NCBI GenBank assembly: GCA_019634095.1
Contig: JAHQVY010000127.1
Coordinates: 1 to 35,339 of the forward strand
DNA length: 35,339 bases
From: Cellvibrionaceae bacterium
GTDB lineage: Bacteria > Pseudomonadota > Gammaproteobacteria > Pseudomonadales > Cellvibrionaceae
Reading direction: 5' to 3'
In this document: positions 8,275-29,070 of the stretch, piece by piece
Numbering within the stretch: the stretch's first letter is position 1
Layout: each line of letters opens with the position of its first letter
Program-made: the position numbers and the translations under genes
The notes under the pieces: generated by a model
Told to the model about the DNA's origin: nothing
What the model saw: the letters and a program-made list of their open reading frames with translations, nothing else
Databases searched by the model: none

Positions 8275-8305
8275 AGTAGGCTTGTATGTATGACTATTGC
8301 CAATA

Positions 8306-8333
8306 GGCTTGAACTTAGAGGCTTGAACTTAGA
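8306..8333. repeat. Perfect 14-bp tandem duplication
   Basis: ggcttgaacttaga occurs at 8306-8319 and again at 8320-8333, directly abutting. It lies in a non-coding gap. Probably a slippage duplication. Confidence 0.8.
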
Positions 8334-8823
8334 GTCGTGAAATCGGTGGATTGAAGCAGAGGATATGCCTTTTAAGTTTGTGATTAGTAAATAGGTTAGT
8401 AAAGTAAACCACCACAGTGAATTCTACTTTTTACCGCGTGTTTGACTGTATGGAACACGCTATATATTTTATGTCAGTAGGTTGTTTTTTATTAATGCTT
8501 TTTATGGGTATGAGTCTTGAAAGAAATATTTAACGCATGCTACTATTTCTTTGCGATTCCACGCGAAGGATTGACTTCACACTAACTTTTCTTGTAGCGT
8601 CTTCTTAGCGTGTTGTGTTGCAAAATAAAGGCTAAAGTCGCTCGATGTAATTTTAAGTCGATTCTTTTGAGCTGTCGTTTTATTCATTCACTGCTTGATT
8701 CGGTCTGCGATGACCGCTGGAATGTGTTTGGCAGTTTTTGACGCATAAATTTGTGCCTTGCTTTTTTTCAGTGCTATTAAGTGACTGCGGATGTCAACTT
8801 CTTTGCGGTTTATGGAGTGTTAT

Positions 8824-9803: not shown

Positions 9804-10325
9804 ATGGAAACTATTCAATACACCCGTATGCAACTATTTTCACTGGTGTGCTTACGCATGCTCGTCGGGTGGCATTTTCTCTACGAAGTTTTGGTAAAAC
9901 TACTTAATCCGGGCTGGTCTGCCCAAGGATATCTTATTGCCTCACAAGGGCCGTTTTCTAAGTTTTTTGTAGCTCTTGGTAACCAGAGCGGTCTCATGGT
10001 GTTTGTTGACATTTTTAACATGGGTGGATTGGCTCTCATCGGGCTGGCACTGATTTTGGGTTGCGCCGTGCGCTGGGCAGCGGTATTCGGCATGATGTTG
10101 TTGTCGCTGTATTACCTTGCCTACCCGCCGTTTGGCAATTTACTGGGCGTACCCGTTGAAGGAAGTTATCTTATTGTTAATAAAACACTTATAGAGATTG
10201 GTGCGCTATGGGTTTTAAAGGAATTCTGCACCAGTAAAAGTCTTGGCCTCGATGGACTTTTTGCATCGATGAAATCAAAGAAAAAAAAGGACGCAGCTAT
10301 GCTAGGGGGGCACTCCTATGAGTAA
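9804..10325 (+). CDS. DoxX-family integral membrane protein
   Basis: The 173-residue protein starts at ATG after AAGGAG (about 9791-9796). It has about four hydrophobic segments and a start typical of DoxX/DoxD-like proteins (CLRMLVGWHFLYEVLVKLLNP, then a GPFSKFF loop). Well-studied relatives are membrane subunits of thiosulfate:quinone oxidoreductase or of oxidant-responsive complexes; many have no assigned role. Its stop codon overlaps the start of the next gene by 8 bp (10318-10325), so the two are almost certainly co-translated. This suggests DoxX provides membrane or quinone contact for the exported oxidoreductase, which is inference. The C-terminus is short and lysine-rich (KSKKKKD), placing it in the cytoplasm by the positive-inside rule. 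Confidence 0.85.
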   Translation: METIQYTRMQLFSLVCLRMLVGWHFLYEVLVKLLNPGWSAQGYLIASQGPFSKFFVALGNQSGLMVFVDIFNMGGLALIGLALILGCAVRWAAVFGMMLLSLYYLAYPPFGNLLGVPVEGSYLIVNKTLIEIGALWVLKEFCTSKSLGLDGLFASMKSKKKKDAAMLGGHSYE

Positions 10326-13118: not shown

Positions 13119-14249
13119 ATGAATGTCTTAATGTTAACTTGTCAGTATATGCCGGATGTGTACGGGGGTGCCGAAAAGCAGTGTTGGCGGCTGTCTAAGG
13201 CTTTGGTGCGCCACGGCATTAATATCCGCTTAATAACTTCTTTGCAGAAAAATGCAGCACGCTTTGATGATGATTTACCGATTTCAAGAATCTATACCGG
13301 AAAAGCGCCAGACTTACTAGGGCGTTGGTTTATATTTTCGAGTTACTGGTTTTTTCGGGTCGTTATTTGGGGAGTAATACATCGCCATTCTTACGATCTC
13401 GTTCATTGCCATCAAGGTAAGTTTGGAGGGTTTGTTGGTTGCTTCCTAGGTCTACTTGTAAAAAAACCGGTCTTAATTAAAATCGGCAATTCTGAGCAAG
13501 ATATGGATTTTCTATGTTTAAAACGTAAATTCTTTTTTGGGCCGTTATTGTTTCGCTTTGTTTTGAAGAGACAACCTTATGTGGTTGCAATCTCCCAAGT
13601 GATCGCCCGTAATTTGGAAACGGCGGGTTTCAAAAATATTATTCGAATTCCCAATGGCATCGATGTCAACGAGTTAGCAAGCTGTGAGATCGCTGAAAGA
13701 CCAGCTGTTAACTCAGATAGAATTAATCTTTTTTACCACGGTAGAGTGGAAAGAATAAAACGTGTTCATCTTTTAGTGGATGCGATGGTCTGTTTAAAGG
13801 ATTCATCAGTTCATTTGCATATTGTCGGAGATGGTGACGAGTTAGGCTATGTAAAAGGCCGTATTAGCGACTTTGGTCTTGAGCAACAGATTACAGTATA
13901 TGGAAGAGTAGATAATGTATTAGCAAGCATTAACAATTGGGATATTTTTGTTAATGCATCGCAATCGGAGGGCTTCTCTAATTCGCTTCTCGAGGCGCTT
14001 TTTTTAGGTAAGATCCTGGTATCTACAAATGTCAGCGGCTGTAGCGAAGCCATCGAGGTGGGTGTGAATGGATATATTGCTAAAAGTGAGTCGGCGAAAG
14101 ATATAGCTGCAGCAATTCAAGCGGCTATTGAATTACATTGTACGGCAAGAAACAAAGCAAAAAAGGAATCAAGTAGAAAAGTGGCAGATGTATTTGATAT
14201 TAATTTAGTGGCGAAAAGGTATATTCAACTTTATGAGGAAATATCGTGA
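13119..14249 (+). CDS. GT4-family glycosyltransferase
   Basis: This 376-residue GT-B enzyme begins with the usual N-terminal strand and glycine loop (MNVLMLTCQYMPDVYGGAEK), where retaining GT4 enzymes contact the donor phosphates. The second Rossmann domain starts near 200 (FYHGRVERIKR) and contains the E-x7-E motif, E284 and E292 in SEGFSNSLLEAL. No membrane segments are seen; it should act at the cytoplasmic face on a lipid-linked glycan. The ribosome site before ATG 13119 is weak (a GGCGCGG stretch). Its stop codon overlaps the next GTG by 4 bp, so the two transferases are translationally coupled. Sugar specificity cannot be read. Confidence 0.93.
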   Translation: MNVLMLTCQYMPDVYGGAEKQCWRLSKALVRHGINIRLITSLQKNAARFDDDLPISRIYTGKAPDLLGRWFIFSSYWFFRVVIWGVIHRHSYDLVHCHQGKFGGFVGCFLGLLVKKPVLIKIGNSEQDMDFLCLKRKFFFGPLLFRFVLKRQPYVVAISQVIARNLETAGFKNIIRIPNGIDVNELASCEIAERPAVNSDRINLFYHGRVERIKRVHLLVDAMVCLKDSSVHLHIVGDGDELGYVKGRISDFGLEQQITVYGRVDNVLASINNWDIFVNASQSEGFSNSLLEALFLGKILVSTNVSGCSEAIEVGVNGYIAKSESAKDIAAAIQAAIELHCTARNKAKKESSRKVADVFDINLVAKRYIQLYEEIS

Positions 14250-15385
14250 AAGTATTAATCGGGATGACACGACCAGATACCATTGCGTCTGGGTCTTTTA
14301 AACATGTAGTACAAGTGGGCGATCGTTTTAGAAAAGAGGGCGTGCAGGTGGCCTATGTTATCGGCAGAAGCGGTCCGGTAACAGATTATTTAGAGCTATG
14401 TGGTTACAAAGTCTATAAGCTCAATTTCTTGGAGCGGGATCTTAATCCATTTAAAGATTTTATCAGTTTGCTGCAATTAATCTGGACAATATGTCTATTC
14501 CGCCCAACTGTTTGTTCATGGCATACCGCAAAAATTGGTGCTCTTGGCAGAATCGCCAGCTTCGTAACTCTGCGAAAGAGTTACTATGTGCCCCATGGTA
14601 TCCCGTTTTACGAATCAAAATTTAACCCGAGTCACGGTAAATACCGAAAACTGGAGAAAATTCTATCATTCTTACCGGGGAAAATTATCGGGGTCTGCGA
14701 TTTTGATACTGAGCAATATCGGAATTTAGGTGTAAGCAGCAGTAAGTTAGTTACTATTGAGAATGGAATGCCTGAACCGATGCCAGAAGCAGATGAAAAA
14801 CCAGCTGCGAGCCAGCCATCGCCAGTTATTTTTAAAACCGCTGCACGTTTCGAAGACCAAAAAGATTACGATACGCTAGCTAAAGCTATTATTAAACTTT
14901 ACGATAACTATCCAAATTTTCAATTACATATTTACGGCGATGGCAAAAATGAAGGCCGAATCAAACAGTTATTTAGCCCGTTACCGCCGGGTGTTGTAAT
15001 TTTTTACGACGTAGTCAAAGATTTTTCCAAGGCGCTCGACGATGCCGATGTTTATATCCTTTCTAGTCATTGGGAGGGGTTGCCACGAACAATTATCGAA
15101 GCGATGTCGGTAGGATTACCTATTATTGCAACCGATGTTGGAGGTGTTTATTCTTTAATCGATGAAGATAAAAACGGATACCTGATACCCTCCCAGGATG
15201 ATAGAAAGTTCTATGAGGCTCTTAGTCGTTATGTGAAGCAACCCGAGCTTATTTCGCTGCACGGCAAAGAAAGTAAGTCGAAATATAAGTACCGTTTCAC
15301 CTTGGATAGAATGTTAAATGAATATGTTGATTTGTACTTACACTCTCGATTTAATCAAAAAACAGTATCCAGTGCTGACGCATAG
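14246..15385 (+). CDS. GT4-family glycosyltransferase, second of a coupled pair
   Basis: The 379-residue GT-B enzyme starts at a GTG that overlaps the preceding stop, with GAGG at 14235-14238 inside the upstream gene. N-terminal motif: MKVLIGMTRPDTIASGSFKH. The middle section carries the HGIPFYES and ENGMPEP turns typical of GT4 enzymes. The C-terminal domain shows TAARFEDQKDY, HIYGDGKNE, then E277 and E285 in HWEGLPRTIIEAM, followed by ATDVGG. It probably acts directly after or before its coupled partner in building the repeat unit. The gap to the next gene is 46 bp, so transcription continues into the polymerase gene. Confidence 0.93.
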   Translation: MKVLIGMTRPDTIASGSFKHVVQVGDRFRKEGVQVAYVIGRSGPVTDYLELCGYKVYKLNFLERDLNPFKDFISLLQLIWTICLFRPTVCSWHTAKIGALGRIASFVTLRKSYYVPHGIPFYESKFNPSHGKYRKLEKILSFLPGKIIGVCDFDTEQYRNLGVSSSKLVTIENGMPEPMPEADEKPAASQPSPVIFKTAARFEDQKDYDTLAKAIIKLYDNYPNFQLHIYGDGKNEGRIKQLFSPLPPGVVIFYDVVKDFSKALDDADVYILSSHWEGLPRTIIEAMSVGLPIIATDVGGVYSLIDEDKNGYLIPSQDDRKFYEALSRYVKQPELISLHGKESKSKYKYRFTLDRMLNEYVDLYLHSRFNQKTVSSADA

Positions 15386-15431: not shown

Positions 15432-16619
15432 GTGATGGTGTTATCGACAGAGCGACGGAATTTTTCTAATTGGCTGGTACTTGGTTACCCATACCTTGTA
15501 TTGTGTTTTTTGCCTATCGCATTGCTCGATCTAAGAATAAATCCAATAATCGTCAAAATTCGTATCTCTGATCTATATTTAGCGACATTAATATGTCTAT
15601 TTCCTTTGCTTAATCCTCGAGCGACGAGCTGGGCAATTAAATGTTTCTTACCTTTTTTACCGTTTTTGGCTTATCTGTTATTTAGTGCCATATTTACAGA
15701 TAATACCACGGGAATTTACGAATTTATTCAATGGGTAATTGTTCTATTCTGGATACCATTATTTGCTTCCGTATTTAGTACCTTGAATTCATCCCAGCTA
15801 AGATATTTCGTTTTATCTATGGCATTGGCGGCGTTCTATGTGGTAGCTATACATGCCTATGAGGGAATATATATTCGTTATAAGTTTATGGGCGATGCCA
15901 AATATATTTTTGGGATCACGTTTTTAGTGGTTTCATTATGGATGTTCCAGCGTTTTTCTTGGCGGGCGTTGATTGTATTTATAGCTAGCGCAACCTTTTT
16001 GGTGCTATCGCTCGAAAGAAAGGGAATTTTAGCATCTGTGTTAACTATCGTGACAATTGTTCCGTTGCTGCGCCTGCAAGTATCGGGTTTCTTTCAGTCT
16101 TTAACTCTAATTGCGATTCAAGTTTTATGCTTAATTTCAGGTTTTGTAGTTTATCTGGTATCTATAAAAGGCGAGGTGTCGGTTACACATTATTTAGATG
16201 AAGCACGAGCGTCGTGGGAGTCTAACTTACATCGTAGCAACTTATTGGCTAACGGAATAGAAATTTTTCAATCTAATCTTTGGTTCGGTGTTGGTGCCAA
16301 AAAATTAGATGATCATATGCAAACCTTTTACTTGGCAGACGGCCTGGCACATTATACGCACAATTGGTATTTGGATTTTTTTATTGAATATGGAATTGTC
16401 GGCGTTGTATTATTTTTTATGCCAGTTTTGGTGCTTATTTTGAAAATTCAACCGAAGCATCAGCGAGCCTGGTTATTTGTTCCTTTGGCGGTATATTGCT
16501 TGTTTGTGCCGACTATGATGGCCAACGGAACAACCACAATGCTTATATATTTAACCGCCATTGCTTCGATTTGCGTGCTTGGTTTGAGCAGGCGAGATAT
16601 ATTAGTACGGAGTAGCTAA
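15432..16619 (+). CDS. O-antigen ligase / Wzy-type polymerase family membrane protein
   Basis: The 395-residue protein is dominated by hydrophobic helices (about ten). The start is GTG 15432 with AAGGA at 15418-15422; ATG 15435 is the next codon and equally possible. A large extracytoplasmic loop at about 245-310 contains HRSNLLANG, LWFGVGAKK and the HYTHNWYLDFFIEYG stretch, which is the signature region of the O-antigen ligase/polymerase domain. In a Wzx/Wzy locus the likely role is polymerising flipped repeat units at the periplasmic face. Sequence alone does not separate polymerase from ligase; the adjacent Wzc-type and flippase genes favour polymerase. Confidence 0.88.
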   Translation: MMVLSTERRNFSNWLVLGYPYLVLCFLPIALLDLRINPIIVKIRISDLYLATLICLFPLLNPRATSWAIKCFLPFLPFLAYLLFSAIFTDNTTGIYEFIQWVIVLFWIPLFASVFSTLNSSQLRYFVLSMALAAFYVVAIHAYEGIYIRYKFMGDAKYIFGITFLVVSLWMFQRFSWRALIVFIASATFLVLSLERKGILASVLTIVTIVPLLRLQVSGFFQSLTLIAIQVLCLISGFVVYLVSIKGEVSVTHYLDEARASWESNLHRSNLLANGIEIFQSNLWFGVGAKKLDDHMQTFYLADGLAHYTHNWYLDFFIEYGIVGVVLFFMPVLVLILKIQPKHQRAWLFVPLAVYCLFVPTMMANGTTTMLIYLTAIASICVLGLSRRDILVRSS

Positions 16620-16769: not shown

Positions 16770-18899
16770 GTGGAAAAGAGTCAACCACCTACAGAAGCAC
16801 TACCCATTGACCTATTCGTCAATGGGCTTCGCAATGCCTTATTTAATAAGTGGAAAATCTTAACTATTGTGACGATTATAACAGTCGGCGCTTATTTTCG
16901 TATGGATTACAGTCCAAGGAAGTATGGGTCCGATGTGACCTTATCGATTAGCGGTGCGATAAGTGCAGACAGTTCACTGGTGAATAAAGATCGGCCCGAT
17001 GGCGGTATCGCTACTACCAAGGCTTATCTCAACACTCAATACGAACTGTTGCTTTCTCGAGATATGTTTGAGCAAGTATACCCGGGCGCAAAAAATATTT
17101 CTTGTCACCTGGAGCAGTATGCCGAACCGGGTACCAAAGGTGGCTTTGAGTTTGATCCGGAAAAGCATATTGTTATCGAACCGGTGCGCAATACGGATTT
17201 AATATCAATTCAAGCATTGTGTCGTAATCCCGAAGCCGCTAGGGATCTAGCCGATTTTTATGCGCAAGAATTTATTAAGCTCAAATTAAGAGAATTTCAA
17301 ACCGAGAGAGAAAGGGTTACTTCATGGAGAAGGCAGGAGGTGACTAGGCTAAAGACCATTTTGGAGCAATCAGAAGCGGAACTATATGCCTTTAGAGAGT
17401 CGCAGCGGGTTTATTCCAGCCAAAAGAATACCGAGCTTAACGATGCAGATGTCCAGCGCTTACGCGAGGCTCTTGCGGCCGAGGAGGAAAAGCGAGTTCG
17501 GCTGGTGGCGTTGAAAAATCAGTTGTCTACAATTAATGCCGATGATATTGCGGTAGACAGTATACTGAGTATTGCATCGCTTACCGATGACGCAACACTT
17601 GAGTTTTTAGTTATGGAGTTATCGAAAGTTTCAACGTCGTTGAATGCGAACAAAAAGATCTATCAGGATGAGCACCCCAATATTCTTGAAGATCAAATTC
17701 GCTATGAAGAAACATTGCAGCAAATCCGTACGCGCATTGCCGTATCGTCGGGTGGTCTCGATAGAGAAATCGCTTTAGCGGACACCTCAATACGGAGCAT
17801 TCGCCGAGAGCTTAGTCAGCTGAATGCGCAGTTTTTAACGATTGATCGCAAAGTTTCAACGTTGGCGACCTTAGAGCAAAACGTCGATATCAATCAAGAA
17901 ATGTACCGCAGTTTTATTGAGCAAACCAATAGTATCGTACTATCTCTGGGTTTTGTGGGCGATCAAATTAAGATTGTCGGTAAAGCCTTTGTCAACCCTC
18001 ACCCGGCAAGCCCTAATATTGAGAAAAATACTGTATTAGCTTTTGTCATTTCTATGTTTATGTTTGTGCTCTATTTTGTTGTTAGGGGAGCCCGTGATCC
18101 CAGCATGAAGCATCCAGACGATGTGAGGTTGACGCTCGATAGCGAAATATTGGGGTATTTGCCGAATGTTAAAACTAAAAGAAGTAAGATGGCCTACAAT
18201 GGCTATAACGTGGAACCTGGGAATATATTTTCCGAAGCCGTGCGTTCGTTGCGAACTAGTTTACAATTGGTTGATCTGGATGTTGAAAAAAAGATAACTA
18301 TTATAACGTCTTCCATATCTCATGAGGGAAAAAGCACCGTCGCCATGAATCTTGCCGCCGCTTGCGGTCAGGTTGAAAAGGTATTGCTTATCGATTGCGA
18401 TATACGACGTGAAACGCTTTCTCGATCACTTTCAATAGAGCCAGGTAGTCACGGTTTGGTTAATGTGCTAAGCAAAGAGCGTGGCGTCGCAGAGTGTATT
18501 GTTTCCGATGCTTCACCGTTTTATCAATTTCTGTCTGCTGGAAGTTATGCAACAACGCGGGGCCCTAAAAAGGACCAGGTTCCGCACAGTCGCGTGGAAA
18601 TGCTTTCAGTTGAAAAATTGAAAAAATTATTCGAAATTCTGCAACAGGATTATGATCATATTATCGTCGACTGTCCTCCAATTTGCGGTGTTAGTGATGC
18701 GAAAATCGTCGCTGCCTGTGCTACGCATGTTATTTATGTTGTCGCTGCGTTTCAGACACCCTCAAAAATTGTGCAGCACGGGTTTCGGGAACTTAAGTCT
18801 TGTAACATTGATATTGCTGGCGTGGTGATGAATAAGATTGATATCAATAAAGCGCGTGCCTATACCAATATGGATTATTACGGTTATGGCTACGCCTAA
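16770..18899 (+). CDS. Wzc-type polysaccharide co-polymerase with BY-kinase domain
   Basis: The 709-residue protein starts at GTG with GAGGCGAGGG upstream. A first membrane segment lies at about 34-50 and a second at about 420-440, enclosing a periplasmic Wzz region with long coiled coils (about 175-240 and 310-380). The cytoplasmic kinase carries Walker A SHEGKST (Lys521), Walker A' LLIDCDIRR and Walker B IIVDCPP. The tail is tyrosine-rich (YTNMDYYGYGYA), the usual autophosphorylation cluster of bacterial tyrosine kinases. It controls chain length and export together with an outer-membrane Wza-type partner, which is not in the window. Cycling phosphorylation of the tail is the family's known control. 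There are 150 bp of non-coding DNA upstream. Confidence 0.96.
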   Translation: MEKSQPPTEALPIDLFVNGLRNALFNKWKILTIVTIITVGAYFRMDYSPRKYGSDVTLSISGAISADSSLVNKDRPDGGIATTKAYLNTQYELLLSRDMFEQVYPGAKNISCHLEQYAEPGTKGGFEFDPEKHIVIEPVRNTDLISIQALCRNPEAARDLADFYAQEFIKLKLREFQTERERVTSWRRQEVTRLKTILEQSEAELYAFRESQRVYSSQKNTELNDADVQRLREALAAEEEKRVRLVALKNQLSTINADDIAVDSILSIASLTDDATLEFLVMELSKVSTSLNANKKIYQDEHPNILEDQIRYEETLQQIRTRIAVSSGGLDREIALADTSIRSIRRELSQLNAQFLTIDRKVSTLATLEQNVDINQEMYRSFIEQTNSIVLSLGFVGDQIKIVGKAFVNPHPASPNIEKNTVLAFVISMFMFVLYFVVRGARDPSMKHPDDVRLTLDSEILGYLPNVKTKRSKMAYNGYNVEPGNIFSEAVRSLRTSLQLVDLDVEKKITIITSSISHEGKSTVAMNLAAACGQVEKVLLIDCDIRRETLSRSLSIEPGSHGLVNVLSKERGVAECIVSDASPFYQFLSAGSYATTRGPKKDQVPHSRVEMLSVEKLKKLFEILQQDYDHIIVDCPPICGVSDAKIVAACATHVIYVVAAFQTPSKIVQHGFRELKSCNIDIAGVVMNKIDINKARAYTNMDYYGYGYA

Positions 18900-18978: not shown

Positions 18979-20490
18979 GTGAGTGTAAAACGGCGAAACA
19001 AAACAATGAGTGAGCGCTCATTGAAACAAGTTGGCTCCGTCGGGTTTTTAGTTCTAGCTGGCAAAGCGGCTCGTTTCTGTGTGCTTATTGCGATGGCCAG
19101 ACTACTAACACCGGAGGATTTTGGTGTCTTTGCGATATTTGCTCTAGCGTTAAATGTGTGTTACACGTTTTATAAAAATATTGTTACGAATATTTTAGTG
19201 CAAAGAAAAGACATGAGTGTGGCTGATATTAACACCGTTGCTTTTACTTCGTTGGTTTTCTCGGTGTTTGCATCACTGTTTTTTGTTTCGATGGCTAAGC
19301 CCTTGGCCGCGTTTTTCGGAAATACAGAGCTGGCTTACTTATTTTACTTAACCCCGATATTTTTATTGATTCACGGCTTTGGCAGTGTTGCTATCGGTTT
19401 GCTTTCCAGAGCCCATAGAGTGGTAGATGTCGAACGCAGCCAAACCTTATATTCCACCTTAGTTAATCTAGCCGTTTCTTTGTTTTTGGCGGTTTTAGGT
19501 TTTGATTTTATGGCCCTGGTGATTGGGTTGTTAGTGGGTGAATTGATTTGTGCGATACGTCTCTACTGTATTTTGCAGCAGAAGTTTGCGGTGAGATACC
19601 ACAAAGAGAGTTTTTACAAAATAAAGTCCGCGTTAAAATCCTATTATTATATTTCTTTGGTGAGTAATTTTAATCAATTTATCGATCAGATACTAATAGG
19701 TAAGTTTCTCGGTTTAGCTGCAGTCGGAATTTATACGCGCGCAGTACAATTAAGGGAGTATCCGCTATTTATATTCTCCAAAACGGTGGTTCGAATTTTG
19801 TTCCCTGTACTTGCCGATATCCAAGACAAACCGGCTAGGGTTAGGGTGGCTATGTTAAAAACCCTTAATCTCACACTATTGCTTCTGCTACCAATTACGG
19901 TGTTTTTATACTTGGAGTCTGAAGCGATCGTTCTGGTTGTATTGGGGGACCAATGGCATAAGGTGGTAGGGGTGATGTCAATATTAATGCTAGGGGTACC
20001 ATTTATGGTTTGCTCTGGCATTTTTCATGCGGCACTCAAAGCGGCAAATCGTGAATCTGCCATTGCTCGGTATCTAACAGTTTATTCTGTGATGTTAATT
20101 ATCTCGCTGAGTATCGGCGTGCAGTACGAGGCGCATGGTATTGCCATTGCCGTAACGTTTACCGCCGCGATGCACTGCGTCAACTATGCCGTGCTTTATG
20201 CTCGTACTATGTCGATCAGCTTTTTCGATTACCTTGGTGTATCGCGGGCTGGTTCGCTGCTCGCCTTCATCGTCGCTATGATATTGTTAGGCATGGAGCT
20301 GATTCTGGCTGATACGCCAGCGATTTTGAAATTATTTATTGTCTCTGCGGTGTTTTCTAGCACTGCTGTTGCGTTGTTACTACTGTTACCGAAAAGTATT
20401 ATTTCCAGCGACGGTTTGTGGTTGCGACGCCGACTGCTTGAGCATATCAGGTTAATTATCGGTCGCCGATTTCCTGCAATTAAAGTGTAA
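18979..20490 (+). CDS. Wzx-type polysaccharide flippase (MOP superfamily)
   Basis: The 503-residue protein has many hydrophobic helices (about twelve to fourteen). The start is GTG 18979 after AGGAGG at 18962-18967, a somewhat long 11-base spacing; ATG 19006 would remove nine residues. Early motifs include a conserved amphipathic start (LKQVGSVGFLVLAGKAARF) and LLTPEDFGVFAIF, characteristic of lipopolysaccharide/exopolysaccharide flippases of the WzxC-like group. IYTRAVQLREYPLFIF in the middle is also typical. Its job would be to move the undecaprenyl-linked repeat across the inner membrane. It lies between the chain-length regulator and the fused transferase, 17 bp from the latter. Confidence 0.93.
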   Translation: MSVKRRNKTMSERSLKQVGSVGFLVLAGKAARFCVLIAMARLLTPEDFGVFAIFALALNVCYTFYKNIVTNILVQRKDMSVADINTVAFTSLVFSVFASLFFVSMAKPLAAFFGNTELAYLFYLTPIFLLIHGFGSVAIGLLSRAHRVVDVERSQTLYSTLVNLAVSLFLAVLGFDFMALVIGLLVGELICAIRLYCILQQKFAVRYHKESFYKIKSALKSYYYISLVSNFNQFIDQILIGKFLGLAAVGIYTRAVQLREYPLFIFSKTVVRILFPVLADIQDKPARVRVAMLKTLNLTLLLLLPITVFLYLESEAIVLVVLGDQWHKVVGVMSILMLGVPFMVCSGIFHAALKAANRESAIARYLTVYSVMLIISLSIGVQYEAHGIAIAVTFTAAMHCVNYAVLYARTMSISFFDYLGVSRAGSLLAFIVAMILLGMELILADTPAILKLFIVSAVFSSTAVALLLLLPKSIISSDGLWLRRRLLEHIRLIIGRRFPAIKV

Positions 20491-20507: not shown

Positions 20508-22772
20508 ATGGAGAGGTTTATGAAGGTTCTATATATTACGAATGGTTTTTGGGGAAGCGGTGAGGCCAATATGGTTCAGTCCCACAATACTGTTGCAGCT
20601 TTGGTAAGTCAAACCGGCGTCACCCAGGTAACGTTTCTCGCCCATGCTGTGGAGCGGCCCAGTAGCTCACAATTAAAACAGGAATTTACCCAAACCACGG
20701 GTGTTTCCCCTGGTGACCATTTGATGATGGAAACGGCGCTTATCAACCCTAAAAGTTGGTGGAAAACGCTGCTGGCGGTGTATAAAAAATTGCGTGATCT
20801 AGAGTATGGAAATTATGATCTTATTTATACTCGAAGCAGAGAAGCGTTGGTGTTGTTTTATCTGCTTGGCTTTAAACGGTTTCAATATGAAGCTCATAAT
20901 TTAGAGTATCCAGGATCGCGCTATAAGCGCTGGTTATACCGCCGTGCCATTTGTTATGGAAAAATGCAGATCGCAACAATTAACAAAGCTCTTATTGAAG
21001 ATTTCAAGGCGATCTATGGCGTGAACCAGGCACGTTTGTCTTTAAATACCTGTTCGGCGCGCAGTCAAATGCAGGCGTCCCCCAAAATTTCTCAACGTCG
21101 CTACATTTGCTATTGCGGTTCGAGTTATCCCGGCAAGGGTTTTGATGAATTTGTAGCATTCTGCCGCAGCCACCCGGAGCTTGAGTTCTTAGCCATGGTT
21201 CGCAGCAGCACCTATTTGGATGAAATTCTGGCAGACCCGCCGCAAAACCTGAAAGTGATGCTGAACTGTAACAATGCGGAAGTGTACCAGTACTTAGCAA
21301 ATTCTTATATTGCTGTAGCGCCGTATTCGCAAAATGCTACAACCTCTGGCGGCAGTAAAAATGCGCGGTATTTAAGCCCACTAAAAGTTTTCGAGTATAT
21401 GTCTGCGGGGTGCTTGGTGGTAGCGCCGAATATTTCTGCAATTACAGAAATTTTGCACGATAAACGCGATGGTTTTCTCTATTATCTGGAGCGAGGTGAA
21501 ACCTTGGCTGATGGTGTACGGGCAGCATTGGATGCTGTGGCAGATGGCCTTGCGCAGCAGGTTAGTGATAGAGCGCGGGAATGTTTTGAAAATGCTTATA
21601 GTTATGATGCTCGCGCCAAAAAAATATTGTCCCACAGTGCTGCAAGCGCCAACAAACAGCGCGCAATTTACTTGATAAATTCCTTTAACTCCGGTGGAGC
21701 AGAGCGCGGCGTTTTGTCTTTACTCGATTCGGGTTTTTTTGACGGCGTGCAATTGGATTTAGTGGCAATACACCGCGGTTCTGGCCCGCTTTTGGATGAG
21801 ATTAAGCAGCGTGGGTTCGATTGTAATATACATATTTGCTCTGGCAGTCAACGTTTGACTGTGGTATCCATGGCGCGTGCATTTATCTATGTGCTGTTTA
21901 GCTTATTAAAGCACAAATATAAGTTTGTTATGTTATCGTTGATTCAGGCGAATTTAATTGGCCTAATTATCACCGCTTTGTATCCTCGAGCACGCGTGAT
22001 TACCTTTGCTCACAATACCCGTTTTTCAAAGAAGATATATTTTCACTTATTAAAAGGGCTTTCCAGGCGTATTGATGTGTGCCTTTACGACGATGAAGAA
22101 ACTCAAAATGCTTACAGACGTATTTTGGCTGAAAAGGAATCTCGGTTGTGGGTGTACGCGCCATTGCATTTTGTTGGCGAGACCGCAGAGCGTGCTCCGC
22201 GTTTAAATGCGTCACCGCTTAAAATATTGTGTGTTGGCCGTTTAAATAAGCAAAAAAATTACCTGCAAGCGATAGAGTCGATTAGCTTGCTATTAAAAAA
22301 GGGCATTGAGGTCGAGTTGCATATTGCCGGAGAAGGTGAGCAGCGCGCCGAAATAGAGGCGAAAGTTAATCAGTTGGGCTTGGGCAATAATGTGAAGTTG
22401 CTGGGCTACGTGTCAGATTGGATGGCGATTGGCAAAACTATGGATGTCTATTTGCTGGCGAGTACGCATGAGGGGATGAGTATTTCCACCATCGAAGCGA
22501 TGTCACTCGGTTTAGCGGTGGTGGCGAGCAATGTGGGTGGGATTAAGTCCTATGGTGTGGATCGCCACAATATGCTGCGCATAGAGAATCCGGTAGCAGA
22601 AGAGTTCGCAGCGGGTATCGAGGCGCTTTACAACGATCGGCAATTACTCGCCGCTTTGGGGCAGCAAGCGCGAGCCGATTGCATCGCGAAATTCGGCACA
22701 GAAAAAGTTCACGAAATTATTTGCCGTGCGAATCAGCTGGTTTTTAATCCTCGGGTGCATGTTCAGACCTGA
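20508..22772 (+). CDS. Tandem GT4-GT4 fusion glycosyltransferase
   Basis: At 754 residues this is twice the normal GT4 length and contains two complete GT-B enzymes. Unit one (about 1-375) begins KVLYITNGFWGSGEANM and ends with SPLKVFEYMSAG (Glu296). Unit two (about 385-754) begins AIYLINSFNSGGAERG and carries CVGRLNKQKNY, HIAGEGEQ and the E-x7-E motif at E655/E663 in HEGMSISTIEAM. No frameshift or stop lies between them. Either ATG 20508 or ATG 20520 could be the start: the latter gives the more usual N-terminus MKVLYITNG and has GGAGAGG just upstream. It would add two successive sugars, or one unit may be structural. The first unit lacks a clean E-x7-E pair, with Glu296 as the only clear acid. 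Confidence 0.92.
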   Translation: MERFMKVLYITNGFWGSGEANMVQSHNTVAALVSQTGVTQVTFLAHAVERPSSSQLKQEFTQTTGVSPGDHLMMETALINPKSWWKTLLAVYKKLRDLEYGNYDLIYTRSREALVLFYLLGFKRFQYEAHNLEYPGSRYKRWLYRRAICYGKMQIATINKALIEDFKAIYGVNQARLSLNTCSARSQMQASPKISQRRYICYCGSSYPGKGFDEFVAFCRSHPELEFLAMVRSSTYLDEILADPPQNLKVMLNCNNAEVYQYLANSYIAVAPYSQNATTSGGSKNARYLSPLKVFEYMSAGCLVVAPNISAITEILHDKRDGFLYYLERGETLADGVRAALDAVADGLAQQVSDRARECFENAYSYDARAKKILSHSAASANKQRAIYLINSFNSGGAERGVLSLLDSGFFDGVQLDLVAIHRGSGPLLDEIKQRGFDCNIHICSGSQRLTVVSMARAFIYVLFSLLKHKYKFVMLSLIQANLIGLIITALYPRARVITFAHNTRFSKKIYFHLLKGLSRRIDVCLYDDEETQNAYRRILAEKESRLWVYAPLHFVGETAERAPRLNASPLKILCVGRLNKQKNYLQAIESISLLLKKGIEVELHIAGEGEQRAEIEAKVNQLGLGNNVKLLGYVSDWMAIGKTMDVYLLASTHEGMSISTIEAMSLGLAVVASNVGGIKSYGVDRHNMLRIENPVAEEFAAGIEALYNDRQLLAALGQQARADCIAKFGTEKVHEIICRANQLVFNPRVHVQT

Positions 22773-22824
22773 GCCGTGGTCATGGTGTGTACGTTACCTC
22801 GCCTTTGGGCGCTATCTTTTACAG

Positions 22825-24792
22825 GTGAAAATAAACGTGCTCCATAGCGAGAGTAGAATTTGTCGCAGTTTGTTGGTAGTGCTTAGCATTTTTATTGCGG
22901 AGGCCTTTGCCGACGATGCGGTGCCCGCTTGCCCGATTGCAGGCGAAACACCGGGTAATTCGCGGAAGCTGGTGGCGGTTGCTGCTCGTGAGTCCAACAC
23001 CGATGCAGACAGCTGCGCTATGTTTCTCAGCTGGCGCTTTTTAAAATCCGATGCGCCAAATACATCTTTTAATATTTATAGAATTACTCCTGGCGGAGCA
23101 GTAGTCAAGTTGCAGCCAAGCCCGCTTGTTAAGGCGACAAATTTTGTCGACCAAGGGTTGCGCCGTTTAAAGTCGGGCGGGTGTGGCAGTTATCGCTGGC
23201 TGGTTGAGAGCAAGGTCGGCGACAAAGTGACGGGCTGCAGCGTGAGCAGCGCAAACTTGACGAATGCGCAGAGCCGGCTGTTGGATTTTAGCTACCCAGT
23301 CGGCGCTTTCGGGCGTTCAATATCCGTGGGGTCACTAATTTCGGGTAGCGACGATTATCTGGTGGTGCGCATACCGGATGTGACGGTTGATCCCTATTTT
23401 AGATTATGGCGCAAAGTTGAGGGGCTTTTTTACTTGCAAGCGGTAGATATTAACGGCAAGCACCTTTGGTCCTACGATATGGGCGCGGCGATCGAGCCGG
23501 GTATTTGGTATTCGCCCTACCTTATTTTCGATTTGGATGGCGATGGTCGCTCGGAGTTAATTGTTAAATCTGGCGAAAAGGGCGCCAGTAAAAAGCAGCT
23601 CACCGATAGCTCGGGCCGGGTGACTCGTGGCAAAGAGTTTCTCAGTATTATTGATGGCTCGGACGGCAACACGATTTTGTCGCAGGCTCCGTGGCCGGAT
23701 AGGTCGGGGTTTAATGGCGGCATGGTTAAGGATTTCGAAGACTACAATCGCTACTCGCGAAATTTGATGGCGATTGCCTACCTCGATGGTATTCACCCTC
23801 ATGTGGTTGTGGTGAGAGGTACCTATGGCAAACACAAGGTGCACGCTTACCGTTACCGAGCGAAACAGGGGTTATCGCGGGTCTGGTCTTGGGAGAACTC
23901 CCCGCCTCAGCATGCGGCGAATAGCAGAAACCTAAAAAAGAATACCGATTTAGAACAGTGGTGGGGCCAGGGAGCGCATACCATTCGCAGCGGTGATATT
24001 GATGCCGATGGCAAAGATGAAGTGATTATCGGCTCCGTGGCTTTAGATGACAACGGTCAGCCGCTGTGGTCTATTAATCGCGGCCATGTCGATCATATCC
24101 ATTTGGGGGATCTTATCCCACAGGAGCCGGGCTTAGAAATGTATTTCGGCGCAGAGCGCAGGCACAACGGCGGTGGTATGGGTATGGTCAGGGCTCGCAC
24201 CGGGGAGTTTTTGTGGCGCTATAACGGCAACACGCGGCATATTCACAAAGAGGGCGTCTGTGCCAACTTCCTTGCATCTTCACCGGGTTTGGAGTGCTTC
24301 AGCGGCGAGGCGGATCAACGCGCGTTTTGGCTTTGGAGTAGTCGTGGCGCGGCCCTATCTCGCGACAAACTCGATAGCTTGAGCCCGTTTGCCGCATATT
24401 GGGGGCAGAGTAATAAAAAATGGCATTTGCGGACGGTGGCGGAAAACAACCAGGGAAAATTGCTCGATATTGTCGATTTGGAATCGGGTAAGCTTGTTGA
24501 CCGCATCAACTTGCCCAAAGACACAGCTAAAAAAGATCTCAACAGCTCTCGAGTGTTGGCGGTTGCCGATATTTTGGGAGATTGGCGGGAGGAAATTCTA
24601 GTGGCGGGCCGCGGACGCATACTGGTTTATACGTCCAATCACCCCACCACAAAGCGCAAACCTTGGTTAATGAGCGATCATATTTATGCCATGGGGGCCG
24701 CATTGAGTTCAATGGGATACTACCAACAACCTATTTTGGGCGAACTTGAAACCAACGACATGTCGAGCCTTGGCCAGCCACCAAAAAAGTAG
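22825..24792 (+). CDS. Secreted PL11-like rhamnogalacturonan lyase homologue
   Basis: About 655 residues from a GTG at 22825, chosen because it yields a plausible signal peptide (basic start, hydrophobic RSLLVVLSIFIAEAFA, cleavage near 29). The open frame extends to 22726, overlapping the previous gene by 47 bp; no start has a good ribosome site. A beta-sandwich domain with LSWRFLKSDAPNTSFNIYR opens the mature protein, as in PL11. A propeller follows, with acidic calcium-type repeats (FDLDGDGRSE at about 235, GDIDADGKDE at about 390), HVDHIHLGDL and the family hallmark GDWREE (about 585). PL11 enzymes cleave rhamnogalacturonan I by beta-elimination. Last in the exopolysaccharide locus, it may trim or release the polymer; alternatively it is an independent degradative enzyme. 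Catalytic residues were not verified. Confidence 0.8.
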   Translation: MKINVLHSESRICRSLLVVLSIFIAEAFADDAVPACPIAGETPGNSRKLVAVAARESNTDADSCAMFLSWRFLKSDAPNTSFNIYRITPGGAVVKLQPSPLVKATNFVDQGLRRLKSGGCGSYRWLVESKVGDKVTGCSVSSANLTNAQSRLLDFSYPVGAFGRSISVGSLISGSDDYLVVRIPDVTVDPYFRLWRKVEGLFYLQAVDINGKHLWSYDMGAAIEPGIWYSPYLIFDLDGDGRSELIVKSGEKGASKKQLTDSSGRVTRGKEFLSIIDGSDGNTILSQAPWPDRSGFNGGMVKDFEDYNRYSRNLMAIAYLDGIHPHVVVVRGTYGKHKVHAYRYRAKQGLSRVWSWENSPPQHAANSRNLKKNTDLEQWWGQGAHTIRSGDIDADGKDEVIIGSVALDDNGQPLWSINRGHVDHIHLGDLIPQEPGLEMYFGAERRHNGGGMGMVRARTGEFLWRYNGNTRHIHKEGVCANFLASSPGLECFSGEADQRAFWLWSSRGAALSRDKLDSLSPFAAYWGQSNKKWHLRTVAENNQGKLLDIVDLESGKLVDRINLPKDTAKKDLNSSRVLAVADILGDWREEILVAGRGRILVYTSNHPTTKRKPWLMSDHIYAMGAALSSMGYYQQPILGELETNDMSSLGQPPKK

Positions 24793-25270: not shown

Positions 25271-27814
25271 GTGCAACCAAACATCACCGCTCTACCCGAG
25301 AAAAAGCTGGTTTATAAGCGGCCTGAATCCTGCGTCGACGAAGTGTACGGCAATGGTGCAGAGGTGGCGACGCACTGGCGTTATTTGCTGGACAGTATCA
25401 GCGCCTTGGGCACAGAGGCGATGGCGCAGCGCAACCAGAAAGCGCTGCGCATACTCCGTGATGACGGCGCCACCTTTAATTTGTTCAGCGACGATGCAAA
25501 TGGCAGCCGCACTTGGGAGCTGGATTTAGTCCCTTCGCTTATTGGCAGCGAGGAGTGGGGAGCGATTGAAACCTCCCTGGTAGAGCGTTCCGAGCTGTTT
25601 AACTTGTTATTTAAAGACCTTTACGGCTCTCGGGATTTGGTGCGCCTGGGGGTTATTCCCCCCGATGTACTGTTCGCCAATGAAGGTTTCTTGCGGGCTT
25701 GTCAGGGTTCACAAGGGCCCGGCCAACACCAGTTGATTCTCCACGGGGTGGATATGTTGCGGCTGGCGGATGGCCAGGTGTGTGTACTCGCTGATCGCAC
25801 TCAGTCCCCGGGGGGAATGGGCTATGCCCTGGAAAATCGCTCGGTGATGTCGCGTGTGCTGCCGAGCTTGTTCCGCGATAGCCATGTGCATCGCTTGGCG
25901 GGGTTTTATCACCGAGTAAGGGCCAAATTAAGCTCCTTAGCCACCGATCAAGAAGATGTACCTCGGGTGGTGGTATTAACGCCGGGTGCCAACGAAGAAA
26001 GTTATTTTGAACACGCTTATCTTGCCAATTACCTTGGCTTTTCTCTGGTTCAGAGCAGCGACCTGGTGGTGCGTGGCGGTTTTGTGTGGATGAAATCGCT
26101 GGAGGGCTTGACCCGGGTGGACGTGATTTTGCGTGGCGTGGACGATTGGTTGTGTGACCCGGTGGAGCTGCGCAGCGATTCGCAGCACGGCGTGCCCGGT
26201 TTATTGGAAGTGGTGCGCGCCGGTCGGGTGGCTATTGCCAACCCTCTGGGGACGGGTGCATTGGAGAGCCCCGTGTTTTTGCGTTACCTGCCGCAAATAA
26301 GTAAAGCCTTGTTGGGGCGAGAATTGCGCATGCCCTCGGTGCAAACCTATTGGTGTGGTGATGCGGGCGATTTGAAGTATGTACTGTCTCACCTCAATAA
26401 ACTGGTGATAAAACCGGTGGAGCGTTTTAGTAAACAGCGCAGTATTTTGGCGGGCGAGCTCACCAGCCAACAGCAACACGATTTGGCGGAAAGTATCAAA
26501 AAGCAGCCGCGACAATTTGTTGCTCAACCCTGTTTAGAGTCGCGGCATCTCCCCACCTTTAGCGGCGGGGGCTTGCAACCGCGTCCGGCTATATTGCGCA
26601 GTTTTGCCCTGGCCGGCGAAAATTCTTATATCGTAATGCCCGGGGGCTTAACCCGAGTGGGTGCCGAAGAGGGCGATTTTTTAGTGGCTAACCACGGCGG
26701 TACTCGAAGTAAAGATACCTGGGTGGTGGCCTCAGAACCCGAAAAAGTGATGCCGCCAGCGGCCCAGAATTCGGTAAGGGCCAGCGATTTACTTTTGATT
26801 AGCTTGCCCAGTCGCGTGGTTGAAAACCTGTTTTGGATGGGCCGCTATGCCGAGCGCGCAGAGGCTTCGCTGCGATTGCTGCGCACAGTGTTTATTATGT
26901 TGAACGGTGAGGCTCCGCTGCCGCCGTTAAGCCGCCGCTATCTGTTAGAGGCGGTCACCGAGTTGACCGGCACGCGGCCGGGCTTCCTCGATTGCGATTC
27001 CAGCTTGCTCGAAAACCCGGAGCCAGAATTAATGCTGGTGGTAAAAGATGCCGCTCGGGTGGGCAGCGTACGCTCAAACTTAGTGGCCATGTTGCGCAGT
27101 GCCGATGAATCGAAAGAACTGCTATCTTCCGATACGATGCGCGTAATCAACGATATCAGCGATACCTTGCAAACATTGGACGATACCTTGCAAGAAGGCG
27201 GCTTGAGTGCCGCGCCGGAGGAGGCGCTAGACCCCTTAGTCACCGCTTTAATGGCCCTTGCCGGCTTGGCTCAAGAAAGCATGTTGCGCGGCATTGGCTG
27301 GCAATTTATGGAAATAGGCCGGCGTATCGAAAGGGGCATGCAAACGGTGAATATTTTGAACAAGCTGCTGACTCAAGTACTGCCGGAAAGCGAGCAAAAT
27401 ATTTTGTTTGAAACCCTGTTGCTTTCGCTGGAAGCGCTCATTAGTTACCGGCGCCGTTACCGGGCACACATGGGGCCAATGCAAATTTTAGAGTTGGTCA
27501 TGTTAGACGCGAGTAACCCGCGCTCCCTGGTTTATCAGATGACGCAGTTAAAAAATCAAATTACCCAGCTGCCAAAGTCGAAAACCAGTCATTTTGAGTT
27601 GAGCCACGAAGAGCGCGCAGTGCTGCAGGGGCAAACCCTGATTCAGTTAATTAATTTGAAAACGCTTTGCAGCGAAAAATACGGTAGCCGACCAGAGTTG
27701 CGTGAGGTTCTAAAAAAAGTTAAAGAGGTGTTGGCAGAAATCAGTACCGTTATTAGCGATAAGTACTTCGATCATCGTATGGGTGCACAGCAGTTAGTTC
27801 GCCGAGACTGCTAG
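25271..27814 (+). CDS. Circularly permuted ATP-grasp / Alpha-E fusion protein
   Basis: The 847-residue protein starts at GTG with only a weak purine-rich stretch (AAAGAAAGAG) upstream. Residues about 60-480 match circularly permuted ATP-grasp (former DUF404/DUF407): FNLFSDDANGSRTWELDLVP, SLIGSEEW, the LADRTQSPGGMGYALENR loop, LRGVDDWLCDP and ANPLGTGALESP. From about 510 (SLPSRVVENLFWMGRYAERAE) to the end is the helical Alpha-E domain (former DUF403). In many bacteria these are separate adjacent genes; here they are fused. ATP-grasp enzymes form amide bonds via acylphosphates, and the set is predicted to ligate a peptide or amino-acid tag. It is cytoplasmic. Its expected neighbour, the DUF2126 protein, lies at 242-3691 beyond the exopolysaccharide genes. 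Confidence 0.94.
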   Translation: MQPNITALPEKKLVYKRPESCVDEVYGNGAEVATHWRYLLDSISALGTEAMAQRNQKALRILRDDGATFNLFSDDANGSRTWELDLVPSLIGSEEWGAIETSLVERSELFNLLFKDLYGSRDLVRLGVIPPDVLFANEGFLRACQGSQGPGQHQLILHGVDMLRLADGQVCVLADRTQSPGGMGYALENRSVMSRVLPSLFRDSHVHRLAGFYHRVRAKLSSLATDQEDVPRVVVLTPGANEESYFEHAYLANYLGFSLVQSSDLVVRGGFVWMKSLEGLTRVDVILRGVDDWLCDPVELRSDSQHGVPGLLEVVRAGRVAIANPLGTGALESPVFLRYLPQISKALLGRELRMPSVQTYWCGDAGDLKYVLSHLNKLVIKPVERFSKQRSILAGELTSQQQHDLAESIKKQPRQFVAQPCLESRHLPTFSGGGLQPRPAILRSFALAGENSYIVMPGGLTRVGAEEGDFLVANHGGTRSKDTWVVASEPEKVMPPAAQNSVRASDLLLISLPSRVVENLFWMGRYAERAEASLRLLRTVFIMLNGEAPLPPLSRRYLLEAVTELTGTRPGFLDCDSSLLENPEPELMLVVKDAARVGSVRSNLVAMLRSADESKELLSSDTMRVINDISDTLQTLDDTLQEGGLSAAPEEALDPLVTALMALAGLAQESMLRGIGWQFMEIGRRIERGMQTVNILNKLLTQVLPESEQNILFETLLLSLEALISYRRRYRAHMGPMQILELVMLDASNPRSLVYQMTQLKNQITQLPKSKTSHFELSHEERAVLQGQTLIQLINLKTLCSEKYGSRPELREVLKKVKEVLAEISTVISDKYFDHRMGAQQLVRRDC

Positions 27815-27882
27815 AAGTATGTGACAACAGCCAAATAACCGTTAAAATTAAAGCCAGCGGGTGCAATATCCGGGTTGGGGAA

Positions 27883-27903
27883 GCGTCGCGTGAAACGGGA
27901 CGC
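27883..27903 (+). terminator. Hairpin, possible terminator without U-run
   Basis: gcgtcgcgt, loop gaa, acgggacgc: nine-base arms with one mismatch, 69 bp after the ATP-grasp/Alpha-E stop codon. No T-run follows, so an intrinsic terminator is doubtful; it may be a 3' end-protecting stem. Confidence 0.3.
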
Positions 27904-27956
27904 CCGCCTATTATCCTAAATAAATCAGTTGGATCGTAGCGAGGGCGCTCAAGGGG

Positions 27957-28048
27957 CTGAAATTAGAGAGAATTTTTTAACTTTTTCGGCAAATTCGTAG
28001 TCACCCTACGGGTGCAGTCGAAAAATTGAAAAAACGCTTTAATTTCAG
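27957..28048. repeat. Long inverted repeat (92 bp)
   Basis: The outer arms ctgaaatta (27957-27965) and taatttcag (28040-28048) pair perfectly. Inner arms ttttttaactttttcg and cgaaaaattgaaaaaa pair with few mismatches, and a central caccc-tac-gggtg hairpin forms the tip. The whole region can fold into one extended cruciform or RNA stem. It does not share sequence with the repeat family at 3751, 5916 and 6496. Confidence 0.7.
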
Positions 28049-28191
28049 TTCATTGGGCGTCCGCAGTAGATTCAAATGATTAATTTAGGATTATGCTTCG
28101 CCGGAAACGGGGTGCATTGGGCATTTGTAAACAAAGCGGCCACTGTGCCAGTAAGTCCTAAGCAGATTTTTAGTTTTATATGGGAAGCGCT

Positions 28192-29070
28192 GTGCACTAT
28201 CGCATTCGTCACATTACAGAATACCAATACCAGGCTCGAGTGTCCCACTGTTACAATATGGCGCACATGGTACCGAGAAACTCTGCCCGGCAGAGCAGCC
28301 GACGCAATTCTGTGACAGTCTCTCCGAGCCCGACATTCACCTCCAAGCGCAATGATTACTTTGGCAATATTGCCTATCACTTTGAAATTCAGCAGCCCCA
28401 TCAAAAGCTTGTGATCACATCGGAAAGCGAGGTGGAAGTGGATCCGCCCTCTATAGCGACTAACCTCGATTTGAGTTTAACCTGTGCCGAGGTGCGCCGA
28501 ATGCTCGCCCATTCCACTGAGCAAGATATTCTTCTAGCGCGGGAATTTTTATTTGACTCGCCTATGATTAAGGCCAGCGCGGCTTTACTAAATTATGCGC
28601 AGCCGAGCTTTGCCGATGATCGCCCCCTGTTGTCTGCGGTAAGCGATTTAACTCAGCGAATTTATGAAGATTTTGAATATTCGCCAGAAGCGACCACCGT
28701 GGCCACTCCACTGAGCGAAGTGCTGAGTAAGCGCAAAGGTGTTTGCCAAGATTTTGCGCACTTGCAGATTGGCTGTTTGCGGGCGCTGGGCTTTGCCACT
28801 AAGTATGTGTCGGGTTACATTGAAACGTTGCCGCCGCCGGGCAAAGAAAAGCTGGTGGGCAGCGATGCCTCTCACGCGTGGATTTCGGTGTTTTCCCCCG
28901 GCGAAGGCTGGTTCGAATTCGACCCTACCAACAATCAAATGGCGGGAGAGCAGCATATTATTACTGCCTGGGGCCGAGATTATCACGATGTGACCCCGCT
29001 GCGCGGTGTCATTTTTGGCGGTGGTGAATCGCCCTTGTTAAAGGTGTCGGTGGATGTTGCCCGTATCTAA
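28192..29070 (+). CDS. Transglutaminase-like cysteine protease family protein
   Basis: The chosen start is GTG 28192 (292 residues, beginning MHYRIRHITEYQY), which has GGGAAG at 28182-28187 and matches the usual family N-terminus. An ATG at 28180 would add four residues but lacks a ribosome site. A beta-rich N-terminal domain (about 1-85) precedes the papain-like core. The triad is visible: Cys185 in GVCQDFAH, His228 in SHAWISVF and Asp244 in FDPTNNQ. Relatives may cleave or transfer peptides; they are habitual neighbours of ATP-grasp/Alpha-E proteins, as here. It is soluble with no signal peptide. It overlaps the next gene by 17 bp. It is a paralogue of the N-terminal part of the protein at 242-3691. 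Confidence 0.92.
   Translation: MHYRIRHITEYQYQARVSHCYNMAHMVPRNSARQSSRRNSVTVSPSPTFTSKRNDYFGNIAYHFEIQQPHQKLVITSESEVEVDPPSIATNLDLSLTCAEVRRMLAHSTEQDILLAREFLFDSPMIKASAALLNYAQPSFADDRPLLSAVSDLTQRIYEDFEYSPEATTVATPLSEVLSKRKGVCQDFAHLQIGCLRALGFATKYVSGYIETLPPPGKEKLVGSDASHAWISVFSPGEGWFEFDPTNNQMAGEQHIITAWGRDYHDVTPLRGVIFGGGESPLLKVSVDVARI

Follow-up and report, generated by a model that had tools for sequence, protein, structure and literature searches.

Among proteins of known structure, the closest to the one described here are YesW and YesX of Bacillus subtilis and 4cag of B. licheniformis, members of PL11, whose fold consists of an N-terminal sheet domain followed by an eight-bladed β-propeller. The active-site residues of YesW are taken here to be His363, His399, Asp401 and Glu422, which bind calcium, Tyr595, which provides stacking, and Arg452 and Lys535, the pair that stabilises the uronate carboxylate. 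The roles of these residues in PL11 have been described, and the spacing reported for Bo3128 fits the YesW numbers used (PMC8787155). CAZy includes a subfamily, PL11_1 (PMC10483417). The present analysis concerns a PL11-like gene in a window of 35,339 nucleotides (the whole stretch analysed, positions 1 to 35,339 of contig JAHQVY010000127.1, GenBank assembly GCA_019634095.1) from a Cellvibrionaceae bacterium. The gene stands at the end of an exopolysaccharide (EPS) locus, and its product is predicted to have the PL11 fold and retains the calcium ligands, with the Arg/Lys pair absent from its aligned positions.

Enzymes that cut a polymer and are encoded beside the genes that make it are known from other folds; the gene for WelR, for example, is located in the welan cluster. 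WelR has been characterised and cuts welan; it contains PbH1 repeats, and no signal peptide is predicted for it (PMC7899989). SpnR and GelR are polymer-cutting enzymes encoded with the EPS genes for sphingans, although SpnR is termed putative; overexpression of GelR released a capsule (PMC5399355). RbmB, encoded with the EPS genes for the Vibrio polysaccharide (VPS) of Vibrio cholerae, has also been characterised and is annotated as GH28 (PMC11637428). The window protein would resemble these enzymes in the pairing of a cutting function with polymer-making genes. Their folds differ from its own, and none is described as PL11 in the available parts of these sources. EPS-cluster lyases such as SpnR and RbmB are already known, but none has a PL11 fold in the literature covered (titles and starts of abstracts, most subscription papers being outside the scope), which also held no PL11 protein in an EPS locus and no PL11 branch without Arg/Lys.

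The gene lies in an intact open frame of 655 codons on the plus strand (22825-24792). GTG at 22837 is the likelier start, giving a protein of 651 residues, because a Shine–Dalgarno-like AGGTGA (22823-22828) stands 8 nt 5' of it, whereas the alternative GTG at 22825 falls within that motif itself. The N-terminus carries a hydrophobic stretch that terminates in AFA-DD, and the AlphaFold2 model has a helix at residues 11-29. As an earlier reading of the sequence alone (hereafter the sequence-only reading) had proposed, this start looks like a signal peptide, and the protein is probably secreted. The PL11 landmarks picked out in that reading are all present: LSWRFL within FLSWRFL (residues 67-73), the acidic repeats DLDGDGRSE and DIDADGKDE, and GDWREE (585-590). 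Curated Pfam cut-offs are passed for RGL11_C (PF21348, 246.9 bits, E 5.4e-73, cut-off 27) and RGI_lyase (PF18370, 30.4 bits, cut-off 27.8), and PL11 and FG-GAP domains are the only ones found on the protein. Among PDB sequences, phmmer finds YesW (E 3.1e-50), YesX (4.4e-49) and 4cag (1.4e-47). Chance as an explanation is excluded.

The assignment to a PL11-type protein is supported by the predicted structure. AlphaFold2, run on an alignment of 23 rows that combined the window protein and divergent relatives, gave a model with a mean predicted local distance difference test (pLDDT) score of 73.1 and a predicted TM-score (pTM) of 0.78. The closest folds in the PDB are YesX (Z 39.5, 544 residues aligned), YesW (Z 35.5) and 4cag (Z 35.2), at 24-29% identity in the structural alignments and over the whole length; the model thus appears to contain the N-terminal sheet domain and propeller of PL11, judged by its overall match to YesX rather than by a count of the blades. 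Other propellers follow at Z 21.4 and below. Outside PL11, the Foldseek and Z-score rows have much lower scores and are mostly propellers, among which no other lyase family stands out, although this excludes none.

The active site was compared in an alignment of YesW, the window protein and 35 PL11 proteins from the host's family and order; lower-scoring family matches lie outside this comparison. Arg452, Asn532, Lys535 and Tyr595 are each present in 35/35 of these canonical proteins, as are the calcium ligands His363, Asp401 and Glu422, with His399 in 34/35. The comparison with YesW that the sequence-only reading had called for gives a divided answer. The window protein retains all four calcium ligands (H385, H421, D423 and E444) and the stacking tyrosine (Y632). 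However, K475/E476 align with Arg452 and S574 with Lys535, so that the carboxylate-stabilising pair is absent from the aligned positions. In addition, IRAGAHY is replaced by IEPGIWY and NQPPH by YQQPI, and one DxDGDG blade loop is lost. The sequence-only reading held that loss of catalytic residues would tell against it; that loss is seen at the aligned positions, with the caveat that the local alignment near Arg452 and Lys535 is uncertain by 1-2 residues and that K475 or R576 might conceivably stand in.

The same reading proposed a working rhamnogalacturonan-type lyase acting on a bacterial polymer with rhamnogalacturonan-like linkages. The fold and the Pfam match agree with this, and K475 or R576 might replace Arg452 or Lys535, but a normal PL11 lyase is very improbable when the pair found in 35/35 canonical proteins is displaced and the IRAGAHY and NQPPH motifs are replaced as well. 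Nor does the locus lend support to such linkages, as Pfam finds no sugar-nucleotide gene in it. On its residues, the window protein is classed as PL11-like and not as a PL11 rhamnogalacturonan lyase: its fold and profile match are those of PL11, but the catalytic pair is missing from the aligned positions. Since all 35 compared proteins of the host's family and order are canonical, it is by the same token no ordinary gene of the family.

The sequence-only reading also placed the gene last in a Wzx/Wzy EPS locus, and this is confirmed by Pfam and gene order. It follows genes for a Wzy_C protein, a Wzc-like kinase, a Wzx flippase and a double GT4 protein on the same strand, with 64 nt between the GT4 stop and the start at 22837 and no terminator-like site between the GT4 stop and the gene. 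Pfam scans of the locus genes found no Wza, initiating transferase or sugar-nucleotide gene, and the gaps contain only frames of ≤66 residues; because of this, the identity of the polymer is not guessable. The closest match to the Wzc-like protein among the other family genomes has 30% identity.

The EPS genes and the PL11-like gene (3692-25270) break up a set of genes that lie together in most of the family genomes tabulated. Among the matches listed for family genomes with DUF2126 and transglutaminase matches on one contig (n = 46), these end genes are 2.5-3.2 kb apart in 39/46, compared with 24.5 kb in the window. The exceptions among them are G138, G015 and G011 (5.7-7.3 kb) and G133, G135, G136 and G013 (>100 kb); in G013, the two genes are 334 kb apart on opposite strands of one contig. 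(G numbers denote family genomes and L numbers fetched loci.) Misassembly or contamination of the island was considered and judged unlikely; a repeat of the island recurs on other contigs of the genome.

Relatives of the window protein were sought widely. In the host's family, 43/144 genomes have matches, the best-scoring other one at 33% identity, and draws that include the window's own genome gave matches in 8/390 genomes of the order, 2/369 of the class and 2/229 of the phylum. No close orthologue was found in these 144 family genomes or in the order, class and phylum draws. Plasmid matches amount to 21 records, all <60% identical, and phage matches to two records, one of which pointed to the first of the groups described below. 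No relative came from a first genome-contig scan or a viral-contig scan with the window protein, nor from a viral scan with A2.

A record from a phage collection, L046, has the same active-site changes as the window protein; from its place in the tree beside Bacteroides cellulosilyticus, it is probably bacterial DNA. A pattern scan built from these two proteins over the GTDB genome set matched 88 stretches and yielded 29 loci. Residues were counted in 27 analysable sequences (26 loci and L046), leaving out the partial or frame-broken L074, L076 and L077 and keeping L071, which is canonical by every motif. All 27 have the four calcium ligands and Tyr595. Asp fills the Arg452 column in 22 sequences, with Gln in two, Ser in two and Arg only in L071; the Lys535 column has Glu in 23 sequences, Gln in two and Lys in L067 and L071. 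The majority of the 27 come from Bacteroidota and form a group named GDGM after its motif, which shares with the window protein the calcium ligands and the absence of Arg452 and (except in L067) Lys535 from their columns; most of its members also share IEPGIWYSP. The group differs in lacking an HxHxxG motif and in often standing with GH88, GH106, GH28 and rhamnose genes, in rhamnose/rhamnogalacturonan loci of Bacteroides. One Bacteroides locus, for example, contains by Pfam a GH88-esterase, a GH106 rhamnosidase, the PL11-like gene, GH28, an FGGY kinase, RhaA, RhaT, an aldolase, GH88 and an AraC regulator.

In phmmer searches of 30 neighbourhoods, at least one of GH88, GH106, GH28 or sulfatase occurs in 26/30 and RhaA in 14/30, where L050, L051, L055 and L066 match by construction, having supplied the reference proteins. 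Without L050 and L051, which have the HxHxxG motif, and the canonical L071, a degradative enzyme is present in 23/27; the four without one are L054 (short flanks), L062, L074 (contig end) and L078. Lack of the Arg/Lys pair does not by itself imply the lack of a role in polysaccharide breakdown, because relatives without the pair often adjoin degradative genes. The sequence-only reading had been staked on relatives not being confined to pectin-utilisation loci. Much of the Bacteroidota group is found in loci of that kind, whereas L078 and the nearer HxHxxG group, with its mixed contexts, are not.

L050 (a metagenome-assembled genome (MAG) of Cyclobacteriaceae) and L051 (a Sumerlaeia MAG) led to this second group, which includes the window protein. 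The class to which L078's genome belongs (Phycisphaerae) has matches in 44/238 genomes, the best of them 41-42% identical with a score of 379 bits, and L051's phylum (Sumerlaeota) has matches in 8/40, canonical PL11 proteins being included in both counts. The order of L050's genome has matches in 45/291 genomes; among the 30 loci listed there, only L050's own has the HxHxxG motif. Because the search for this group covered solely the taxa to which L050, L051 and L078 belong and those of the host, its distribution, mainly in Phycisphaerae and Sumerlaeota, reflects sampling. L149, intermediate by its motifs, was assigned to neither group. The 23 members (20 fetched neighbourhoods plus L050, L051 and L116) include the best matches to the window protein and share with it HxHxxG and IExGxW. 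None has Arg in the Arg452 column, and only L116 and L184 (2/23) have Lys in the Lys535 column. For the two groups pooled (47 proteins besides the window's, L050 and L051 being shared), Arg452 is found in 0/47 and Lys in the Lys535 column in 3/47 (L067, L116 and L184).

The members of the HxHxxG group differ from the window protein in their contexts, which are housekeeping, sulfatase-adjacent (L050, L051 and L185) or in tandem with canonical PL11, and in keeping residues that the window protein has lost. In L116 (3529-8040) and L180 (6360-10872), argH/thiL-like genes are followed by the PL11-like gene and then tsaE, a housekeeping setting that L182 and L184 resemble by gene sizes only. In 5/20 neighbourhoods, all from the Phycisphaerae class (L171, L173, L174, L175 and L179), the gene adjoins a canonical PL11 gene 8-48 nt away. 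PQQ/BamB-like propeller genes lie near L168, L169 and L170.

In a first tree, which retained 20/36 canonical rows, the window protein pairs with L050. In a second, which leaves out the partial L136, L140 and L154, it falls among the HxHxxG proteins with support of 90/68 (not starred), and the tandem Phycisphaerae proteins come nearer to the canonical group. The approximately unbiased (AU) test does not reject a tree in which all HxHxxG proteins are kept together (p 0.0585). The exact place of the window protein in these sequence trees is unsure because of the long branches; its own end branch measures 1.78, against a median of 0.22, which fits a changed role. It has retained 112/147 of the positions that are near-invariant across the 23 members, while in leave-one-out comparisons the others retain 132/153 (L050), 133/149 (L184) and up to all. 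By this comparison of sequences, no other protein of the HxHxxG set has diverged as far. The proposal of a PL11 branch with a new substrate has stood in part, to the extent that the window protein belongs to a divergent group whose active site is altered.

The preferred reading, held tentatively and at somewhat less than even odds, is that an exported, calcium-binding propeller of PL11 fold acts, with an altered specificity, on the polymer that the locus makes. The protein would have originated in the divergent HxHxxG group, with a cleft chemistry unlike that of YesW, the calcium site and the stacking Tyr staying and the carboxylate-holding Arg and Lys no longer in place. Its gene would have been recruited to the end of the inserted Wzx/Wzy locus, and the product would act outside the cytoplasm as an enzyme of trimming, release or turnover. 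The fold, residue changes, related groups, gene order and gene-set interruption are computed results; that the protein is exported, binds calcium, acts on this polymer and still cleaves is what we infer. Cutting is favoured because the calcium site is kept and relatives without the pair are often in degradative loci, and the link to EPS because of position, strand and spacing. A wider form of the idea, that PL11-fold groups work without Arg/Lys by other cleft chemistry and that one of them was recruited here to cut or bind its own EPS, is conceivable, if rather doubtful.

Several results weigh against the preferred reading, and two other readings are its close rivals. No substrate or activity was found for either divergent group. 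Residues present in 23/23 of the relatives, among them R622, E205, R600, D170, R260 and D253, are lost in the window protein, as are D527/D529, which are conserved in a comparison with near-copies cut to 14 representatives but are not near-invariant within the HxHxxG group. These losses could mean that there is no catalysis, and retention of five out of five site residues is weak evidence to the contrary, because 76% of near-invariant positions are kept anyway. The protein might thus be a secreted pseudo-enzyme that does not cut but binds the EPS as a matrix or surface protein, like Bap1 and RbmC. Proteins of this type carry an accessory β-prism lectin domain and act in adhesion and matrix assembly. 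Bap1 is itself a propeller, and it aggregates with VPS (PMC11637428). In the structure comparison, Bap1 (6mlt) is the best-ranked natural protein after the PL11 proteins (Z 21.1, root-mean-square deviation 3.9, 368 residues aligned), tied with designed and WD40 propellers that are unrelated, and it comes fifth by Foldseek with TM-scores of 0.39-0.42. The loss of the catalytic pair and of further near-invariant residues, which at polar and aromatic positions leaves 59/77 in the window protein versus 69/77 (L184), 70/80 (L050) and up to all in others, is in keeping with a binding role. On the other side, the calcium ligands and Tyr of the active site are retained, related proteins without the pair often adjoin degradative enzymes, phmmer finds no sequence relation to Bap1 or RbmC, and the rank of Bap1 may reflect mere common propeller shape. 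A pseudo-enzyme is a somewhat less likely reading than the preferred one.

The other rival concerns the link to the EPS genes. The sequence-only reading expected a branch consistently tied to Wzx/Wzy genes. In six-frame peptides of 52 neighbourhoods from both divergent groups, searched with a profile of the window's own GT4 domains (E 1e-4) and with its Wzx, Wzc and Wzy (E 1e-3), matches to window-type GT4, Wzx, Wzy and Wzc number 0/52, although single-sequence searches miss very divergent Wzx/Wzy. An EPS-linked PL11 branch is not borne out by this. The 52 include the canonical L071 and the partial or broken L074, L076, L077 and L117, and many have short flanks (e.g., L046, L051, L053, L054, L056, L057, L061, L062, L074, L172, L178, L182 and L186). 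Matches to the window's GT2 occur in 3/52, at about 7-8 kb from the gene (L171, L174 and L175). Composition points the same way: the transferase, Wzx, Wzy and Wzc genes of the locus have a GC content of 0.38-0.46 and the GFO/IDH/MocA gene 0.49, while the PL11-like gene, at 0.522 (0.576 at third codon positions, GC3), is flank-like rather than EPS-like, and its codon use leans weakly toward the flanks (+0.015 per codon). The gene may have entered independently of the EPS genes. It may have an unrelated catabolic or envelope role and lie by chance between the EPS genes and the flanking set; the genome has a separate canonical PL11 and may use pectin. Yet the insertion encloses the gene, which shares the strand of the last EPS gene and begins 64 nt beyond it, and the canonical character of all 35 compared proteins does not suit an ordinary family gene. 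Such a hitchhiker is a slightly less likely explanation again, though close behind.

With the window protein, a candidate enzyme recruited to the EPS locus, one can ask whether EPS production can make new use of such a propeller. Among the PL11-profile proteins examined, 47 besides it lack the Arg and 44 of these also the Lys, some of them in rhamnose loci of gut Bacteroides. If such proteins are active, the same fold would support a different lyase chemistry; if they are inactive, the PL11 profile match misleads.

Table 1. Genes of the EPS locus and of the gene set that it interrupts, with coordinates in the window.
Feature	Position	Strand	Basis
Flank: transglutaminase-DUF2126 protein, first gene of the interrupted set	242..3691	+	Pfam; position in relatives
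GT2 and GT8-like glycosyltransferases (GT8 below cut-off)	7006..9663	+	Pfam
DoxX-like membrane protein (below cut-off) and GFO/IDH/MocA oxidoreductase	9804..11991	+	Pfam
Two GT4 glycosyltransferases	13119..15385	+	Pfam
Wzy-like polymerase/ligase	15432..16619	+	Pfam Wzy_C, 58.4 bits
Wzc-like chain-length/tyrosine autokinase	16770..18899	+	Pfam AAA_31; NCBIfam TIGR01007 just above cut-off, other models below theirs
Wzx-type flippase	18979..20490	+	Pfam Polysacc_synt_3
Double GT4 glycosyltransferase (final EPS gene, directly ahead of the PL11-like one)	20508..22772	+	Pfam Glycos_transf_1, two stretches
PL11-like, probably secreted β-propeller protein	22837..24792 (open frame from 22825)	+	Pfam RGL11_C, RGI_lyase; PDB YesW/YesX; Shine–Dalgarno-like AGGTGA
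Flank: CP_ATPgrasp/Alpha-E protein and transglutaminase, remainder of the interrupted set	25271..29070	+	Pfam; gene spacing in relatives

The gene that precedes the PL11-like gene encodes a single protein of 754 residues with two GT4 glycosyltransferases in tandem. The DoxX-like gene overlaps that of the GFO/IDH/MocA oxidoreductase, which has a start resembling a twin-arginine (Tat) signal and whose nearest NCBIfam model, glycoside 3-dehydrogenase, is far below its cut-off. Elsewhere in the genome, the canonical PL11 protein, of 1099 residues, is encoded on contig C220 (L187:803-4102), and the end of contig C227 (L188) carries a second EPS locus with Poly_export (Wza), a BBP2_2 porin and a Wzc-like gene.

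The EPS insert also contains copies of a repeat of about 168 nt that resembles a miniature inverted-repeat transposable element (MITE), with terminal inverted repeats (TATACCCAAA...), at 3750-3917, 5916-6105, 6517-6691 and 12361-12475; none is reported elsewhere in the window. Searched against the genome, the first copy gave 40 scored places of 293 candidates at 92-100% identity, itself included; the 39 other listed places are on other contigs, at 92-99% identity. Arms of 97 nt (3818-3914 and 5917-6013), 96% complementary to each other, lie on both sides of a GMC oxidoreductase gene (3966-5675, minus strand), which is arranged as if carried between two copies of the repeat.

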